Positions 51,579-64,000 of a DNA stretch of 64,000 nucleotides are shown one piece after another. Position 1 is the first letter of the stretch. Every line of letters begins with the position of its first letter. The translations under genes and the position numbers were made by a program. Under the pieces are notes generated by a model that saw only the letters and a list, made by a program, of their open reading frames with translations, had not been told where the DNA came from and searched no databases. The stretch comes from Planctomycetota bacterium (GTDB lineage Bacteria > Planctomycetota > Phycisphaerae > UBA1845): positions 1 to 64,000 of the forward strand of contig JAUWWQ010000002.1 of assembly GCA_030616775.1 (NCBI GenBank). Direction: 5' to 3'.

Positions 51579-52073
51579 TTAGCCCATTACACCGCACAAG
51601 TCCGGGCGCAAGTAAACGGCTATGTGCAGGATCGCACAGGTGTACAGCCCGGCGGCGATGTCGTCGCCGACGACGCCCCAACCGCTGGGCCAGTGCTTCT
51701 CAATCCAGTTGGCTGGTGGAATCTTGATGACGTCAATCGTGCGCTCAAGCACAAAGGCGAGGATGGCCAGTTGCCACGTGAAGGGCACAAACGCCACCGC
51801 GACCAAGAAGCCTGCCACCTCGTCCCAAACCAGTGTTCGGGAGTCCTTCTCGGCGAGGATCCGATCGCCGGTCGCGTGAAGCCATACGGCCGCCATCGTG
51901 ACCGTGAGGGTGGCCGTAACGTACGCGATCCACGGCCAATCATGCATGAGCCAAAAGAGCGGTATCCCGACCACTCCCACCGTGATCGTACCAGAAGCAG
52001 GCAAGTGACCAAGCGGACCGATCGATCCGATCATCAGAACGGTCCGTTCCCATTGCCCGGCGGAAGCCTTCAC
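51579..52073 (-). CDS. pgpA: phosphatidylglycerophosphatase A
   Basis: Membrane enzyme that removes phosphate from phosphatidylglycerophosphate to give phosphatidylglycerol. The family motif is GDRILAEKDSRTLVWDEVAG (Asp/Glu pairs), followed by HWPSGWGVVGDDIAAGLYT; three to four membrane helices surround these. The start is uncertain: GTG 52073 gives the family's usual N-terminal length, ATG 52034 is shorter, TTG 52109 longer. Phosphatidylglycerol synthesis is general housekeeping. It is followed upstream by a 570-bp gap before the divergent DUF1573 gene. Confidence 0.88.
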   Translation of the reverse strand: MKASAGQWERTVLMIGSIGPLGHLPASGTITVGVVGIPLFWLMHDWPWIAYVTATLTVTMAAVWLHATGDRILAEKDSRTLVWDEVAGFLVAVAFVPFTWQLAILAFVLERTIDVIKIPPANWIEKHWPSGWGVVGDDIAAGLYTCAILHIAVYLRPDLCGVMG

Positions 52074-52458
52074 GCTTGTTATAGTGGCACGGCCGGGCAC
52101 GCACCGCAATCACAAATAAGGTGTGGAGGTGGAAGAAACAGGGTGGATTGCGGGTAGATGGCCCCGATGGCAGCGCCGGTCCGCGGCGGCGGCTTTCTAG
52201 GAGTGTTTCCTCTGTGTGCGTGCCTTGCAGAGTAACAAGCGGCGGCATTTCCTCTCGGTCCGCATCGCGGATTGGCCCGATGGGCGGGGAAGCCGACCCG
52301 ATACGTCGCGGCGGTGCGGTGTGGGGCGCAATAAGTGTCCACCGAGCGTATCGAACGCGGCCCGGCATCGTGCCCGGGGGACCTCCGAAGGCTGTGAGAA
52401 TCGTCAGCCACCACTGGCGAGCTGACAGTAACGTCATAGTAACAATTTGGTTAACGGC
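52074..52458. other. intergenic before the DUF1573-thioredoxin leader, no gene seen
   Basis: About 385 bp between the pgpA start and the candidate promoter of the divergent gene. Frames here are short or Arg/Ser-rich with no ribosome-binding site. It should hold the pgpA promoter, which I could not pick out. Confidence 0.35.
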
Positions 52459-52639: not shown

Positions 52640-55378
52640 ATGACTGCCAAGTTCAATTACCACTCAAATGGGAGACGGCGTTTCAACATCAACGGGTGGT
52701 GGCCCGCCAGGCCAGGGCGGACTGCCAGAGCCGTGTCTGGTTTTCTGGCCGTGGCCGTCGCGCTCACATGTACGCTGCAGGCGTTTGCGGTGAAGCCGCC
52801 GCCGAAGAAGTATGGAGAGGCAAAGAAAGGGGAAGACGTCCCGACGGCCGTGAAACGCGAGCGGGTCAAGTTGATCGGTGCCGAGAGTGTACCCCCCAAG
52901 AAGGACGCCGCCGCCACGACTCTTGAGGCCAAAGGACCCCGACCGGTCATCAAGGTCGAAACCCCCGTCCACGACTTCGGGACGGTGTGGGTCGGGCCGA
53001 AGCTGCAGCACACCTACATCATCAAGAACGAGGGGAAGAAGACGCTCAAAATCGAGAATATCAGGCCGGCCTGCGGATGTACCATCACCGGGAAGTATCC
53101 CACGACAATCGCGCCGGGTGAATCGGGCGAGTTCCCGTTCTCGACGGACAGCACCAGGTTGCGTGGCAAGTTTGAGAAAGGCATCACCATTATTTCCAAT
53201 GACCCCGTCATGCCAAATCTCCGACTGAAGTTGCGCGGTGAAGTGAAGAGGTATGTGGAGATGGTCCCGCCGAACGTGTATTTCGGCAAAATCTCCAAGC
53301 CTGAGGCGCAGACCCGGGTGCTTCAGATCACGAACAACGCCGACAAGCCACTGGAGATAGAGCTGGCTAAACTTCCGAAAGGCAATATCGATGCCAAACT
53401 GGTCACCACAACGCCAGGGCAAGCCTACGAGCTGCATGTCACCGCGACACCGCCCTTTAATACCGGCATACTCTATAAGCGGATCTCCCTGAAGACAAAC
53501 ATGGAGGCACAGAAAACACTCAACGTCGACGTGCGCGGAAGCATCCCCGCACGGCTCGAGGTGAATCCCAGCATCTTGAATGTCAGCGCCCCCCGGGGCC
53601 AGGTGAGAGACTTGCAGGTGTCGACGCGGACCATCAAGTTCACCAACTACGGCGATACGCCGGTTAGACTGCTTGAGGCGACCGTTGATGATCCGAGTAT
53701 CAAGCTCAAGGTCATCGAGCAGCGCGAGGGCAAGAGATATAGCGTCGAGGTCCAGTTCCCTCCCGGCTACAACGTGCCGTCCAGGGGACGCACCATTACG
53801 CTGAAGACGGACGATAAGGCGAGGGCAAGCATTGCCGTGCCGGTCAAGAGCCTCGCGTCGCGAGAGAAGAAAGCGCAGCGCAAGCCGCAACAAAGACAAA
53901 GACCGGCGGAGATGATGGTCGGAACGCAGGCACCTGCCTTCAACGTTACAACTACCGAGGGTAAGTCGTTGTCCAGTGCGGATCTCTCCGGAAAGATCAC
54001 CGTCCTCGACTTCTTCGCCGTGAACTGCGGCTTCTGCAAGAAGCAAATTCCCAGGCTGGAGACGATTCGCAAGGAATACGAATCGAAGGGTGTTCGCTTT
54101 GCCACCGTTAGCCAGACAATGCGGGGAAAGAAGTACACCAACGACGAAGTCATCGACACGATCAAGGGACTCGGTTTTGGCGGTGAGATTGTGGCCGATC
54201 CAGACAACACCGTCGGGCCGCTCTTTAAGGCCACCAGCTTCCCAACGATGGTCGTCATCGGAAAGACCGGAAAAATCGAGGCGGTCAACATCGGAAATAT
54301 CGGGGATCTGGAATCGCGCCTGAAGGGACAGCTAGGTGCACTCCTTGCCGGCAGGCCAGTACCGAAGCCCGAGGCGGTTGCCAAGAGGCCCGAGCGGCAA
54401 CGGCCCGAGCGTAAGCGAGCTGACGAGCTGGTCGGCAAATCGGCTCCTGCGTTCTCCATCGATACCCTGGAGGGCAAAACGGTGTCGAACGGCGAGTTCG
54501 GGAACAGCGCGGTCACCGTGCTGGACTTCGTCGCCCCGAACTGCGGCTACTGCAAAAAGCAGATCCCTCGCGTGGAAAAGATCCGGCAGACCTACGCCGA
54601 TAAGGGCGTGCGGTTCGTCAGTGTCGTCCAGACGATGCGCAAGAGGTACACAGCCGACGAGGTCGTCGCCTCGATGGACGAGCTCGGGGCGAAGCTGGAG
54701 ATTGCCCATGACCCTGAGAACAAGATCGGTCGAATGTTCAACGCCGGCGGCTTCCCCACGATGGTCGTAGTTGGAAAGAGCGGCAAGGTTGAGGCCGTCA
54801 ACGTTGGGAACATCGGTGACCTGGAGAAGCGACTGACAGGCCAACTCGACGCCCTGATCGCCGGTAAGCCTGTGCCGAAGTTCGCCTCCGCCCAGCCGCA
54901 AAAACGCAGACGCCCTGCCGAGGACATGGCCGGCAAGCCCACTCCCGAATTCTCGTTGACCACCCTCGATGGTAAGGCCGTCTCCAGTGACGAATTCAAG
55001 AATCATCCGGCGACGGTCCTCAACTTCTTCGCTCCCAACTGCGGCTTCTGCAAGAGGCAGATTCCGAACGTGGAGAAGGTGCGCAAAGAGTACGAGGCAA
55101 AGGGTGTACGCTTCGTGAACGTTGCCCAGAAGATGAGGAAAGACTACACCGAGGCCGAAATCGTTGATGTGCTGACAGGGGTCGGCTCCGGTCTGGAGCT
55201 GACTATCGGCGACTTCGCCGACAACAAGATAGGGAGACAGTTTCAGGCGGTCAGCTATCCCACCATGTTTGTGGTGGGCAAGGATGGCAAGATTGCCAAC
55301 GTCAATATCGGTGCCAAGCAGAATCTGGACACGCTGCTCAAGGGGCAATTGGATACCTTGCTGAAAGGTAAACCGTAA
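52640..55378 (+). CDS. exported DUF1573 protein with three tandem thioredoxin/TlpA domains
   Basis: A 912-residue envelope protein. The signal peptide has a long basic N-region and GFLAVAVALTCTLQAFA (about 34-50). A DUF1573 Ig-like domain (about 103-200) carries CGC at 145-147, and more Ig-like beta domains follow to about 400. Three redoxin domains then sit in a row with active sites C463-C466 (NCGFCKKQ), C635-C638 (NCGYCKKQ) and C801-C804 (NCGFCKRQ), each with a cis-Pro (FPTM or YPTM). Basic linkers separate them. All three look catalytically intact. It probably reduces or forms disulfides of periplasmic proteins. GGAGAAGGG precedes the ATG. Confidence 0.93.
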   Translation: MTAKFNYHSNGRRRFNINGWWPARPGRTARAVSGFLAVAVALTCTLQAFAVKPPPKKYGEAKKGEDVPTAVKRERVKLIGAESVPPKKDAAATTLEAKGPRPVIKVETPVHDFGTVWVGPKLQHTYIIKNEGKKTLKIENIRPACGCTITGKYPTTIAPGESGEFPFSTDSTRLRGKFEKGITIISNDPVMPNLRLKLRGEVKRYVEMVPPNVYFGKISKPEAQTRVLQITNNADKPLEIELAKLPKGNIDAKLVTTTPGQAYELHVTATPPFNTGILYKRISLKTNMEAQKTLNVDVRGSIPARLEVNPSILNVSAPRGQVRDLQVSTRTIKFTNYGDTPVRLLEATVDDPSIKLKVIEQREGKRYSVEVQFPPGYNVPSRGRTITLKTDDKARASIAVPVKSLASREKKAQRKPQQRQRPAEMMVGTQAPAFNVTTTEGKSLSSADLSGKITVLDFFAVNCGFCKKQIPRLETIRKEYESKGVRFATVSQTMRGKKYTNDEVIDTIKGLGFGGEIVADPDNTVGPLFKATSFPTMVVIGKTGKIEAVNIGNIGDLESRLKGQLGALLAGRPVPKPEAVAKRPERQRPERKRADELVGKSAPAFSIDTLEGKTVSNGEFGNSAVTVLDFVAPNCGYCKKQIPRVEKIRQTYADKGVRFVSVVQTMRKRYTADEVVASMDELGAKLEIAHDPENKIGRMFNAGGFPTMVVVGKSGKVEAVNVGNIGDLEKRLTGQLDALIAGKPVPKFASAQPQKRRRPAEDMAGKPTPEFSLTTLDGKAVSSDEFKNHPATVLNFFAPNCGFCKRQIPNVEKVRKEYEAKGVRFVNVAQKMRKDYTEAEIVDVLTGVGSGLELTIGDFADNKIGRQFQAVSYPTMFVVGKDGKIANVNIGAKQNLDTLLKGQLDTLLKGKP

Positions 55379-59640: not shown

Positions 59641-59805
59641 CCGGCAAAGCCGCGGGCGGCTTTCCCTCGGTGCCGGACTGCCTGAGCAACACGTCTCGTG
59701 GGACCTTGGCGAGTTGACCGGTCGGGCCTGTGCTCAGTAGGCCGCTTCCTAACCCGGGTTGCTCAGCCCGCCGATAAGAAGACCGCAGGGTATGGACCTG
59801 CTCTT

Positions 59806-62493
59806 ATGGAGATGTTACGCGCGCCATCCAGCCGATCGGTTCTCACGGTAGGCACCCTCGCGGCAGCGATCGGGCTCACACAGACCCTGCGCGCATTGCC
59901 TGCCGTCGGTCCTGTGCTTTCGCCGACACGTATCGTTCACCGCTTCGACTTTGACGAGCGCGCCGCGGGCAACCTCGAGGACGTGCCCAAGTATTGGGAG
60001 CCACTTCGAGCCAATGGCTTCCCGCACTTTGCATATGGTACCTTTGACTTTGGAACAGGGAGGCTTGCTCCCCCATCATTTCACTTGGTCAGCGAAGGGC
60101 GTAATGTCGCGTACCAATATAACGGGCCGGAAACACGTGTGCGCGCCAACACGGATTACCGGATCGAGGGATACATCCGGGCCGACCGGCTGACGTATGC
60201 CCGGACGTGCCTTAGCGCTCATTTCATCGACAAGCACGGCCGGCCCATCCCTGAAACCCTGGTCCGTTCGCGTTACGTCGGAGCCCCGGGTGACGGTGAC
60301 GGATGGGTGAAAGTTGAACTCTACCTCGCAGCCGCGCCCCGGCAGGCCCATTCGATTAGCCTGGTCGCATGGGTCCTGCAAAAGCCTCTATGGAGCACGT
60401 CAGTGCCGTATCGACGTCACATCCCCAGGACCGACGTTCGCGGTGGGGCCTGGTTCGACGACATCACGATCTATGCACTGCCGCGTGTTCAGATCACAAC
60501 CGGCGCCCCCGGCAACGTTATGGCACCGGGAGACACACAGGAATTGCGCGTTGTCCTGGCGGACGACGACCCTACGCTTGCGGGCTTGCTGTCGATCAGG
60601 GCGGCGGATGGCGCTCTGGTCGAGACACATCCGGTGTCGGTTACGATTGGCACGAGTGCAGGGTCGGTCCGATTTCCCGTAGACCATCTGCCTCCCGGGC
60701 TCTATCACGCCCGATTGGATGTATTCGCGGATGACGCCCCGATCAGTTCCCGGCGCGCGACGTTCGCTCGTTTGAGCCGGCTGCACCGAAGACCTGAGGC
60801 CCTGGCACGGTCATTCGGTGTGGTTGTTAATCCACGGTTTCGAAGCAATCCCGAGACAGAACTCAGGTTGCTGCAACATCTGGCGGTTCGGTCAGTAAAG
60901 CTGCCCGTCTGGATGGGCCTGGCGGAAGATCCACCGATGGCCGGGCAACGTCGGGCCACAGACCGGTTCCTGCAGGAGCTGGTCAAGAGCGGCTTTGCCC
61001 TGACGGCTGTCTTCCGTGGCCCACCCAGTCCGATTGCCCGTAGCGACGGCCGGATCGCGCGCCCGCTGATCGAGTTGCTGTCCGGCGACCCAATGGCGTG
61101 GAAGGAGCATCTGGCAGCCGTGGTGGCGCCCAATGCCGGCGCGTTTCGGTGGTGGCAGATGGGTCCTGATCCACAACCGGTGCACTGGCTGCCGGCTCCG
61201 CAAGAGCAACTGACACTGGCGGTAACTCAGTTGCGCGACGCCATCCGCCCCTTCACGACCATGCCGCGCTTGTCAGTCCCAGCCACAACGGCTGTTGAGC
61301 CGCCCGCGCGAAAGCTGCCCGTCGAGCAGATTGCGTTGGCGATCGGTGGTGAGATCCAGCCAGACCGGTTCGCGTCGCAGATCGACTACTTTCGAAAGAT
61401 CGGTTACCAGAAAGTGTCTACATACGTGGAGCCGCTTCCTGCGAATCAATACCGCCGACTTCCGTGGTTGGCGGATTGGGCGCAGCGTGTCATAACAGCC
61501 CGGCATTCCGGCGCCGACACCGTGTTTGTGCCGCAAACGTGGTCTGTGCGCGAAACGGTGGAGGGTCAGATAACTGAACCGACGGAGCCGTACCTGGTCC
61601 TGCGCACCATTGCGGGCCTGCTGGCGGACGCCGCCCCGGGTCAGCGCCTGCGCCTGGCGGAGAGCGTGCATTGTCTTGCCTTCCATGACGAGGAATCGAC
61701 CATTCTGGCTTTGTGGGACCCGCAGGCACCGCCAAGCGGAACGCAGTACGCGATTCAACTGGGACATGCCGACCGCCAGATTGATCTCTGGGGCCACCCG
61801 ACACCGCTTACGCGCGACGACTCCCGGCGGCAGGTCGTGCGCCTGACGCCGATGCCCGTATTGGTTCCGGGGGTCGAGCGATGGCTCATTGATCTGCGTA
61901 CGTCGTTCGCGCTTACCCCCGGGCATGTCGAGTCCGGCACCGAACTGATGCGCCACCGTGTCGAGATGACCCACAGTGGCGAGGGGCCGGTTTCCGGTCA
62001 CGTTGTCCTGGACCCACCCGACTCGTGGGAGGTCTCACCTCGCTATTTCAGCTTCAGTCTAATGCCCCAACGTGTTGGCAGCCATGCAGTGGAAGTGCGT
62101 TACCCCCACAACGAGCCTGTCGGCGAGAAGGTGATCGTGGCCAAGGTGACCCTGTCAGATGGGCCGTATTACCTCCAAATTCCCATGCCTGTCAAGATCG
62201 GTGTAACGGATTTGGAGGTCTGGGGGCAGGCGGTGGTGGCCGGGAATAAACTCGTACTTCGTGAAGTCGTTACCAATCGCTCCTCCGAAGTGCTGAGCTT
62301 TCGGGGATCAGCCAGTGTCCCGGGCCGCGAGCGCCAATACCGCCCGATCTCCAACCTCCGACCCGGCGACACCCAAGCCGTCGAATACCGCTTCAGTGAT
62401 GGGGACGCTCTGATTGGGCGGAACGCCCGCCTCGTGTTGCGGGAAGTCGACGACGGCCCGCGCACTCACAACCTGGAACTGAGGATTCCCTGA
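59806..62493 (+). CDS. large exported protein, carbohydrate-related-like, unknown function
   Basis: Starts MEMLRAPSSRSVLTVGTL with a hydrophobic segment (AAAIGLTQTLRALPAVG), so probably exported. Residues 40-230 look like a carbohydrate-binding beta-sandwich (GFPHFAYGTFDFGTGRL, ANTDYRIEGYIRADRLTY). The centre (about 380-700) has TIM-barrel-like alternation (LQELVKSGFALTAVFRG). The C-terminal 250 residues (DSWEVSPRYFSFSLMPQ, PHNEPVGEKVIVAKVTLSD) resemble the NEW3 domain that follows some glycosidases. No catalytic pair could be assigned. ATG 59806 is chosen for the signal; the frame opens at 59698. Confidence 0.72.
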   Translation: MEMLRAPSSRSVLTVGTLAAAIGLTQTLRALPAVGPVLSPTRIVHRFDFDERAAGNLEDVPKYWEPLRANGFPHFAYGTFDFGTGRLAPPSFHLVSEGRNVAYQYNGPETRVRANTDYRIEGYIRADRLTYARTCLSAHFIDKHGRPIPETLVRSRYVGAPGDGDGWVKVELYLAAAPRQAHSISLVAWVLQKPLWSTSVPYRRHIPRTDVRGGAWFDDITIYALPRVQITTGAPGNVMAPGDTQELRVVLADDDPTLAGLLSIRAADGALVETHPVSVTIGTSAGSVRFPVDHLPPGLYHARLDVFADDAPISSRRATFARLSRLHRRPEALARSFGVVVNPRFRSNPETELRLLQHLAVRSVKLPVWMGLAEDPPMAGQRRATDRFLQELVKSGFALTAVFRGPPSPIARSDGRIARPLIELLSGDPMAWKEHLAAVVAPNAGAFRWWQMGPDPQPVHWLPAPQEQLTLAVTQLRDAIRPFTTMPRLSVPATTAVEPPARKLPVEQIALAIGGEIQPDRFASQIDYFRKIGYQKVSTYVEPLPANQYRRLPWLADWAQRVITARHSGADTVFVPQTWSVRETVEGQITEPTEPYLVLRTIAGLLADAAPGQRLRLAESVHCLAFHDEESTILALWDPQAPPSGTQYAIQLGHADRQIDLWGHPTPLTRDDSRRQVVRLTPMPVLVPGVERWLIDLRTSFALTPGHVESGTELMRHRVEMTHSGEGPVSGHVVLDPPDSWEVSPRYFSFSLMPQRVGSHAVEVRYPHNEPVGEKVIVAKVTLSDGPYYLQIPMPVKIGVTDLEVWGQAVVAGNKLVLREVVTNRSSEVLSFRGSASVPGRERQYRPISNLRPGDTQAVEYRFSDGDALIGRNARLVLREVDDGPRTHNLELRIP

Positions 62494-62660: not shown

Positions 62661-64000
62661 GTGGTTAAGCGGTTTACTTGCATTGTTTTATTGCAGTATG
62701 CCATACCTATGGCGGCTGGGCAGTTGCCGCCCATTCCCGACAGGACCGATACCGATGCCAAGGCCGGACCATCGTTGTTTGTGGCCCAGCGGGTGCAAAA
62801 CATCGGCACCGTGCTTGAAGGCGACAAGCCGATAGTGCAGTGGCGGCTGGAAAACCGCGGTAAGGCCGATCTGATCATCGAACAGACTCGTTCGAGTTGC
62901 GGATGCGCCGTGGTCAAGCTGACCGACAAGGAGAAGACCATCCCTCCAGGCAGGCCGCTCGATCTGAAGGTTGAGTTCAACAGCCAGGGTCGGCGCGGTA
63001 TTCAATCCAACTCGGTTACCATCTTCAGCAACGACCCCGTTGAGCCCAATCTGAAACTGGAATTCAAGGCAAATGTGCAGTTTCTTTACGAGATGAAGCC
63101 GTCCGGTCTGGTGAACCTTCGTGCAGTTCAACGCGGCAAGGTGGCGGAGAGGGCCATCGAGATCTACCCCGGCCCGAATCGCAAGGTCGTCAAGATCCTC
63201 GATCTGCAGGTGCCCGACGATTCCCCGTTGAGCTTTCACCATGAACCGTTCGTTGCCGGCAGCGGCACCGGTCAACGGATTCGCATGACCGCAAGAGAAC
63301 ACGTCTCATTAGGCACACTCACCGCCCAAGCGAACATGAAACTGAGCATCGACGGCATCGAGCGACAGCGGACCGTCTCGATCCGCGGCGAGGTGGTCGG
63401 TGACTTGACCTGGCACCCCAAGACGGTCAACGCCACACGTCAGGTTTCGCAACCGGGAAAGCGTTTTGCCCCGATTACGATTCGTTCGATGGACAAAATG
63501 CGTTTTGACATTCTGGAGGCAGAAGCCGGATCGCTCTTCGATGTCACCTTCGAGCCCTCTAAGAACGGGCCGAAGGGCATTCAATACTCGGTGTTTCTCA
63601 CCTTACGCGACGACGCCCCGCCCGGCCCCTTTGGCACGCTGCTGGAAGTGCGGACCAGTTCATTGGATCAACCGCTGGTGCGTGTGCCGGTTTTTGGCGT
63701 CGTCGCCAAGCCGATCGAGGCGGAACCACCGATGATCCTTCTGCGTCAAGACGGCACGCCGGTTGGAACTCACCGGCGGGTCAGGCTCCGGGTTCTGCCG
63801 CAACTAAAGTTGGAGGTCTCCGACATAATCTGTAGCAACGATGCGGTCGTTGCCACGCTCGACCGGGAAGCGAGTTCTCGCTACCAGCATCTGCGTTACC
63901 TGGACGTGAAGCTGAAGGACCGGCTTCCGATCGGCACGCACCAGGCGGTGTTGGCCATGACCACCAACATCGAAGGAGTTCAGCGGTTGGAGATCCCCGT
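62661..64000 (+). CDS. exported DUF1573-domain protein, 3' part beyond window
   Basis: Starts at GTG 62661 (VVKRFTCIVLLQYAIPMAAG is a signal peptide) with GGAG 9 nt upstream. A DUF1573 Ig-like domain follows, with SSCGCAVVKLTDKEKTIPPG near residues 80-100 and VTIFSNDPVEPNLKLEFKAN. Further Ig-like beta repeats run to the window end without a stop. It has no thioredoxin domain in the part seen. It is the same family as the protein at 52640 and shares the CGC motif. Encoded 167 bp after the large exported protein, so perhaps co-transcribed. Confidence 0.88.
   Translation, partial: MVKRFTCIVLLQYAIPMAAGQLPPIPDRTDTDAKAGPSLFVAQRVQNIGTVLEGDKPIVQWRLENRGKADLIIEQTRSSCGCAVVKLTDKEKTIPPGRPLDLKVEFNSQGRRGIQSNSVTIFSNDPVEPNLKLEFKANVQFLYEMKPSGLVNLRAVQRGKVAERAIEIYPGPNRKVVKILDLQVPDDSPLSFHHEPFVAGSGTGQRIRMTAREHVSLGTLTAQANMKLSIDGIERQRTVSIRGEVVGDLTWHPKTVNATRQVSQPGKRFAPITIRSMDKMRFDILEAEAGSLFDVTFEPSKNGPKGIQYSVFLTLRDDAPPGPFGTLLEVRTSSLDQPLVRVPVFGVVAKPIEAEPPMILLRQDGTPVGTHRRVRLRVLPQLKLEVSDIICSNDAVVATLDREASSRYQHLRYLDVKLKDRLPIGTHQAVLAMTTNIEGVQRLEIP

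Follow-up and report, generated by a model that had tools for sequence, protein, structure and literature searches.

A DUF1573 domain with a CGC motif, two further Ig-like domains and three intact redoxin domains are joined in one presumably exported chain, encoded by a gene in the window, by which we mean the whole stretch of 64,000 nucleotides that was analysed. We put it at about even odds (roughly 0.5) that this protein acts in the periplasm as a multi-headed thiol-disulfide oxidoreductase or isomerase, in which the heads would work largely independently, as in ERp46, and the CGC motif would provide a further reactive dithiol. A search of the PMC literature found no description of a DUF1573 plus tandem redoxin architecture.

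The gene is one unbroken ATG-to-stop open reading frame (Table 1). A Pfam profile search confirmed the DUF1573 domain with its CGC motif and the three redoxins that the initial annotation had read from the letters: PF07610 matched with 101.3 bits against a gathering score of 26.1 (best stretch residues 104-202), and three stretches exceeded the cut-off as AhpC-TSA/Redoxin (PF00578, E 1.5e-45; PF08534, E 3.8e-43). Two doubts had been raised there, namely that fewer than three redoxin domains might be found and that one CxxC might be a sequencing artefact in a close relative; they are answered by these three stretches and by the conservation of the CxxC motifs among the relatives. The CxxC positions given there (463, 635 and 801) are exact, and the cis-Pro loops are intact, reading FPT in redoxins 1 and 2 (534-536 and 705-707) and YPT in redoxin 3 (873-875). 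Together with the flanking Asn, the active sites are NCGFC, NCGYC and NCGFC. The mature chain contains eight cysteines, all within the one CGC and the three CxxC motifs, and the sole other cysteine of the reading frame, residue 44, falls within the signal peptide. Read by eye, this peptide consists of a basic region and a hydrophobic stretch, with cleavage expected after LQAFA and no lipobox, and on this reading the 912-residue protein would be periplasmic. Two further profiles scored below their cut-offs: NF041425, the OS_HP2 (seleno)protein profile, with 82.8 bits (curated cut-off 100) and the NCBIfam PDI-domain profile with 77.4 bits (cut-off 107.2). The three redoxins share only 53-58% pairwise identity as protein and 61-64% as DNA, which marks them as old duplicates and not as an assembly repeat; the DNA identity, together with the same architecture in other assemblies, rules out an assembly or sequencing artefact.

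Table 1. Positions of the gene, its domains and motifs, and neighbouring or related genes (window coordinates unless a contig is named).
Feature	Position	Strand	Basis or remark
Whole gene, DUF1573-Ig-Ig-(redoxin)3	52640..55378	+	912 aa; Pfam, AlphaFold2 model
Signal peptide, residues 1-50	52640..52789	+	by eye from sequence
Ig-like domain 1 = DUF1573, residues 99-203	52934..53248	+	PF07610, E 3.2e-29; high-pLDDT beta-sandwich
CGC motif, Cys145/Cys147 (residues 145-147)	53072..53080	+	sequence; first Cys aligns with in-frame TGA of paralogues
Ig-like domain 2, residues 206-302	53255..53545	+	weak DUF1573 match; AlphaFold2 model
Ig-like domain 3, residues 306-405	53555..53854	+	AlphaFold2 model
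Basic linker, residues 406-423	53855..53908	+	sequence; low-pLDDT core 407-418
Redoxin 1, residues 424-582	53909..54385	+	Pfam, sequence, model
Redoxin 1 CGFC active site, residues 463-466	54026..54037	+	sequence
Redoxin 2, residues 595-752	54422..54895	+	domain tree: nearest kin is domain 3 of L001
Redoxin 2 CGYC active site, residues 635-638	54542..54553	+	sequence
Redoxin 3, residues 761-912	54920..55375	+	domain tree: orthologous C-terminal clade, support 100/99
Redoxin 3 CGFC active site, residues 801-804	55040..55051	+	sequence
pgpA (phosphatidylglycerophosphatase A), divergent neighbour	51579..52109	-	adjacent at 12 of the 21 related loci
selA and selB, adjacent	L052:6112-9637, contig C45 of the same genome		

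An AlphaFold2 model, built from an alignment of 15 sequences, shows three Ig-like beta-sandwiches and three redoxins at about the residues listed in Table 1, mostly with pLDDT values of 85-94. Disordered stretches lie at residues 407-418, 578-589 and 750-756 of the model; the linkers are basic and predicted to be disordered, and with a pTM of 0.35 the domains have no confidently predicted fixed arrangement. In Foldseek searches the heads matched ResA and its relatives, with TMt values of 0.82-0.91 (about 0.9) for the ResA entries, and the Ig arm matched HYDIN/ASH-type Ig proteins of cilia, which is a likeness of fold and not a functional kinship. Based on this model, three ResA-fold heads with CGFC or CGYC sites would be attached by basic, flexible linkers to an arm made up of three Ig-like domains. 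Each head would probably exchange disulfides with clients on its own, and the presence of several heads on one chain may concentrate active sites locally, as in eukaryotic ERp46/TXNDC5. In ERp46, three flexibly linked equivalent heads act independently and at nearly equal rates (PMC10866363). Like this enzyme and other multi-thioredoxin PDIs, the window protein has at least three catalytic heads on long flexible linkers in one exported chain (PMC10866363), but its heads are of the redoxin/ResA subtype instead of the PDI type, its non-catalytic domains are different, and it is bacterial. It may therefore resemble ERp46 in the way it works while standing outside the ERp46 family.

The architecture recurs in Planctomycetota, where a scan of contigs found 21 loci with a DUF1573-redoxin protein. 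Relatives occur in 72 of 347 genomes of the class, all but one from the window's own order; a phylum-wide draw of 392 genomes, apparently poor in close kin, gave the window's own genome as the sole match at E <= 1e-25. At least three redoxins are present in 19 non-redundant proteins of a Phycisphaerae clade, the window protein included, with 3 to 6 tandem heads: six proteins have three heads, seven have four, four have five and one has six, whereas the remaining one ends at a contig edge within its third, and since nearly all sequences are metagenome-assembled, assembly collapse may distort some of these counts. The proteins with at least three heads form one clade (support 96) with one two-head protein (L069) nested inside, in a quick tree of the N-terminal part that omitted three of the 19 and has many weak branches. 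Many relatives are single-headed, and a separate lineage with WCG[FY]C sites duplicated independently to two heads. The closest relative, L001 (metagenome-assembled contig CP070827, labelled chromosome), is 77% identical in the best-matching redoxin segment and has the same architecture, but with four redoxins. In the 19 proteins every CxxC is intact (75 of 75 redoxins).

The motifs of the heads differ from those of typical reductases. Over 71 domains (L001-L021 and the window protein) we counted NCGFC 43 times, NCGYC 24 times and NCPHC four times, and CxPC is absent from all 75 heads of the proteins with at least three, in which only CGFC, CGYC and CPHC occur. The motifs of three other redoxins encoded in this genome are WCAPC, WCGPC and WCPPC, with Trp before the first Cys at the place where the heads have Asn. 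At the position of Glu80 in ResA, which follows the second Cys by three residues, at least 95% of the domains have Gln and none has Glu. Most CcmG/ResA-type reductants have a Pro in the dipeptide (PMC5909903), and the window heads carry neither this mark of the ResA/CcmG subgroup (as in CEPC or CVPC) nor the Glu after the second Cys. Known isomerases, in turn, have CGYC, CPYC, CIHC or CGHC and require at least two catalytic domains (PMC6450060). Isomerases and oxidases can have Tyr or His as the second residue of the dipeptide (CGYC in DsbC, CGYC/CPYC in ScsC, CGHC in alpha-DsbA2; PMC6450060), and the Tyr has been described as characteristic of dimeric isomerases, a hallmark of them (PMC5909903). 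This DsbC/ScsC dipeptide (Gly or Pro, then Tyr or His) is present as CGYC in redoxin 2, while redoxins 1 and 3 have Phe in second place; CGFC is absent from the isomerase motifs characterised in the cited literature (PMC6450060, PMC5909903). Thr before the cis-Pro marks DsbC-type isomerases (PMC6450060), and this residue is Phe or Tyr in all three window heads. Natural CPHC heads occur in L012, L015 and L016, the same motif that has been engineered into ResA (PDB 3c71). Judged by these motifs, the evidence leans towards oxidation or isomerisation and does not settle the direction; disulfide formation or shuffling would be more likely than a strong reduction of the ResA/TlpA type. The multi-client disulfide enzyme that the initial annotation had considered fits the intact CxxC sites, the isomerase/oxidase-type dipeptides and the linkers predicted to be flexible.

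We regard it as possible, if rather unlikely, that the chain is instead an array of TlpA/ResA-type reductases, in which heads reduced by DsbD would reduce apocytochromes, copper-site proteins or the CGC, and more heads would mean more capacity. The fold and the closest solved relatives are indeed those of ResA/TlpA/DsbE, the genome encodes DsbD, N-terminal domain included, and the residue before the cis-Pro is hydrophobic, as in ResA and TlpA (PMC5909903). The missing CxPC, the Asn in place of Trp and the Gln in place of Glu80 argue against it, and the neighbours of the window gene include no recognised gene for cytochrome maturation. Compared with the known systems, the heads share with ResA/TlpA/DsbE-CcmG (PF00578, PF08534; PDB 4nmu, 1st9) the fold (TM about 0.9), export, CxxC and cis-Pro-Thr; the proteins with at least three heads differ in carrying 3-6 of them per chain, fused to DUF1573 and an Ig arm, and the heads in having CG[FY]C or CPHC and not CxPC, Asn before the first Cys and Gln for Glu80. 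With DsbC/ScsC, the window protein has in common the CGYC of redoxin 2 and a working unit that contains more than one catalytic domain. The bacterial disulfide isomerases described in PMC6450060 gain two or three active sites through oligomerisation, whereas the window protein is a tandem fusion, without the DsbC dimerisation domain and with Phe/Tyr-cis-Pro and not Thr-cis-Pro.

Redox partners are encoded elsewhere in the genome. Besides DsbD, it contains a VKOR-DsbA fusion (L035, contig C24), whose DsbA-like site is CSEC and which is likely the periplasmic oxidant; since both are present, electrons could flow either way, and the heads may draw their redox power from DsbD (reducing), from VKOR-DsbA (oxidising) or from both. 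A conserved operon with a redox partner was not found in the related loci. The conserved neighbour is the divergent pgpA, which marks a conserved locus and has no known redox link, and the downstream genes pcrA-manC-ruvX recur only in the closest relative. Further along the plus strand of the window, a 931-residue protein (59698-62490) has no Pfam match at E <= 1e-6, and a second DUF1573 protein with SCGCA (62709-64000, putative start) shows no redoxin in its visible part and runs off the window end.

The CGC motif of the DUF1573 domain is kept in every protein with at least three redoxins in which this domain was seen. At the column of its first Cys, six paralogues have an in-frame TGA (L032 in the same genome and L125-L129 in other genomes of the same order), and among 23 aligned paralogues every TGA inside the DUF1573 domain sits at this position. 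We take this TGA as a presumptive selenocysteine codon. The redoxin-less paralogue L032 (contig C95:624-1727, minus strand) reads RGG-TGA-GT, with Thr for the second Cys, and is a probable selenoprotein; together with L127 it represents a variant without the second Cys. Both SelA and SelB are encoded in the genome, with 580.8 bits (cut-off 267.9) for the former and 360.4 bits (cut-off 242.25) for the latter. No tRNA-Sec was found near selAB, and among the 150 of 725 Rfam candidates that were scored the best matches were ordinary tRNAs. A SECIS-like hairpin is predicted 3' of the TGA in L032, with a stability not above that of shuffled sequences (z -0.75).

When Cys and Sec replace each other at a given position, this is routinely taken as evidence that the thiol is reactive. 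The TGA of the paralogues at the first Cys of CGC thus indicates that the DUF1573 domain itself is probably redox-active, and by this alignment Cys145 of the window protein is likely, not certain, to be reactive as well. The CGC would then probably be a further reactive dithiol that trades electrons with the heads or with clients. A role of DUF1573 as tether or client binder, as had been suggested initially, is therefore probably incomplete: the retained CGC and the paralogue TGA at its first Cys point to a redox site. DUF1573 with a UGC motif is listed among the selenoproteins by two reviews (PMC9312934, PMC13188914), and Cys-X-Cys has been investigated as a protein disulfide isomerase mimic (Woycechowsky and Raines 2003, as cited in PMC6132022). 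The window protein matches PF07610 over its full length and has its CGC at the UGC selenocysteine site listed for OS_HP2 (NF041425); it differs from OS_HP2 in its fused tandem redoxins, in the score below the cut-off and in having Cys and not Sec.

The duplication followed by divergence that the initial annotation had proposed was borne out by a tree of 70 single redoxin domains, which places the duplications further back and shows a more dynamic history than was envisaged there. One clade (100/99) unites the C-terminal domains of all 16 complete multi-head proteins with three single-head proteins only, and the first domains mostly cluster together. The middle domains tend to group by protein, as seen for domains 2-5 of the six-head protein L002, 2-4 of L009 and 2 and 4 of L003, and window domain 2 corresponds to domain 3 of L001, which has one extra. 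With ends that are mostly orthologous between species and middles that tend to group by protein, the array gains and loses heads in its middle part and retains both ends. The C-terminal heads form a subtype in which NIGAK replaces NxGN, and this leaves room for a specialised end, which might, for example, be a docking head for a membrane partner. A bolder and more doubtful extension of our reading is that head number expands and contracts, accordion-fashion, with the conserved N-terminal module on one side and the conserved C-terminal head on the other, and that DUF1573 is a new, selenocysteine-exchangeable redox domain working with the heads.

The conserved ends also bear on the internal electron relay of the initial annotation, read here as electrons hopping from head to head between a membrane partner and the DUF1573 CGC. 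The distinct C-terminal head, with NIGAK and 16 complete domains in one clade, suggests specialised ends, and the CGC looks reactive too. In addition, neither the CGC nor the first redoxin's CxxC survives in L072, L075, L083 and L096, which form one f2 clade, and the last CxxC is kept in three of the four; this co-loss is suggestive in this one clade only, amounts to one or two independent pairs and carries no statistical weight. The number of middle heads, however, varies freely from 1 to 4, the near-identical, nearly equivalent active sites provide no evident potential gradient, the linkers are disordered and the pTM is low, so that the relay found no specific support and appears improbable. 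Very improbable is an envelope protein with a mainly structural or adhesive role, in which the redoxin repeats would multiply with catalysis not under selection: the Ig arm does resemble HYDIN/ASH scaffolds and copy number is plastic, but all CxxC sites of the proteins with at least three heads are intact amid 40-50% sequence divergence, and sister lineages do lose CxxC, which makes this retention meaningful.

By analogy, the multi-headed thiol-disulfide enzyme that we favour suggests that the clade parallels, in bacteria, the multi-domain disulfide enzymes found in the secretory pathway of eukaryotes. Its 3-6 fused heads, natural copy-number variants and swaps from CGFC to CPHC offer a ready series on the value of extra heads, and DUF1573, a domain of unknown function, gains a testable role, since the same position is Cys here and TGA in paralogues, both within this genome and elsewhere in the order. 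Among further relatives, L094, L106, L107, L108 and L111 have a redoxin in which the first Cys is kept and the second is replaced by Ser, giving a monothiol CxxS site.
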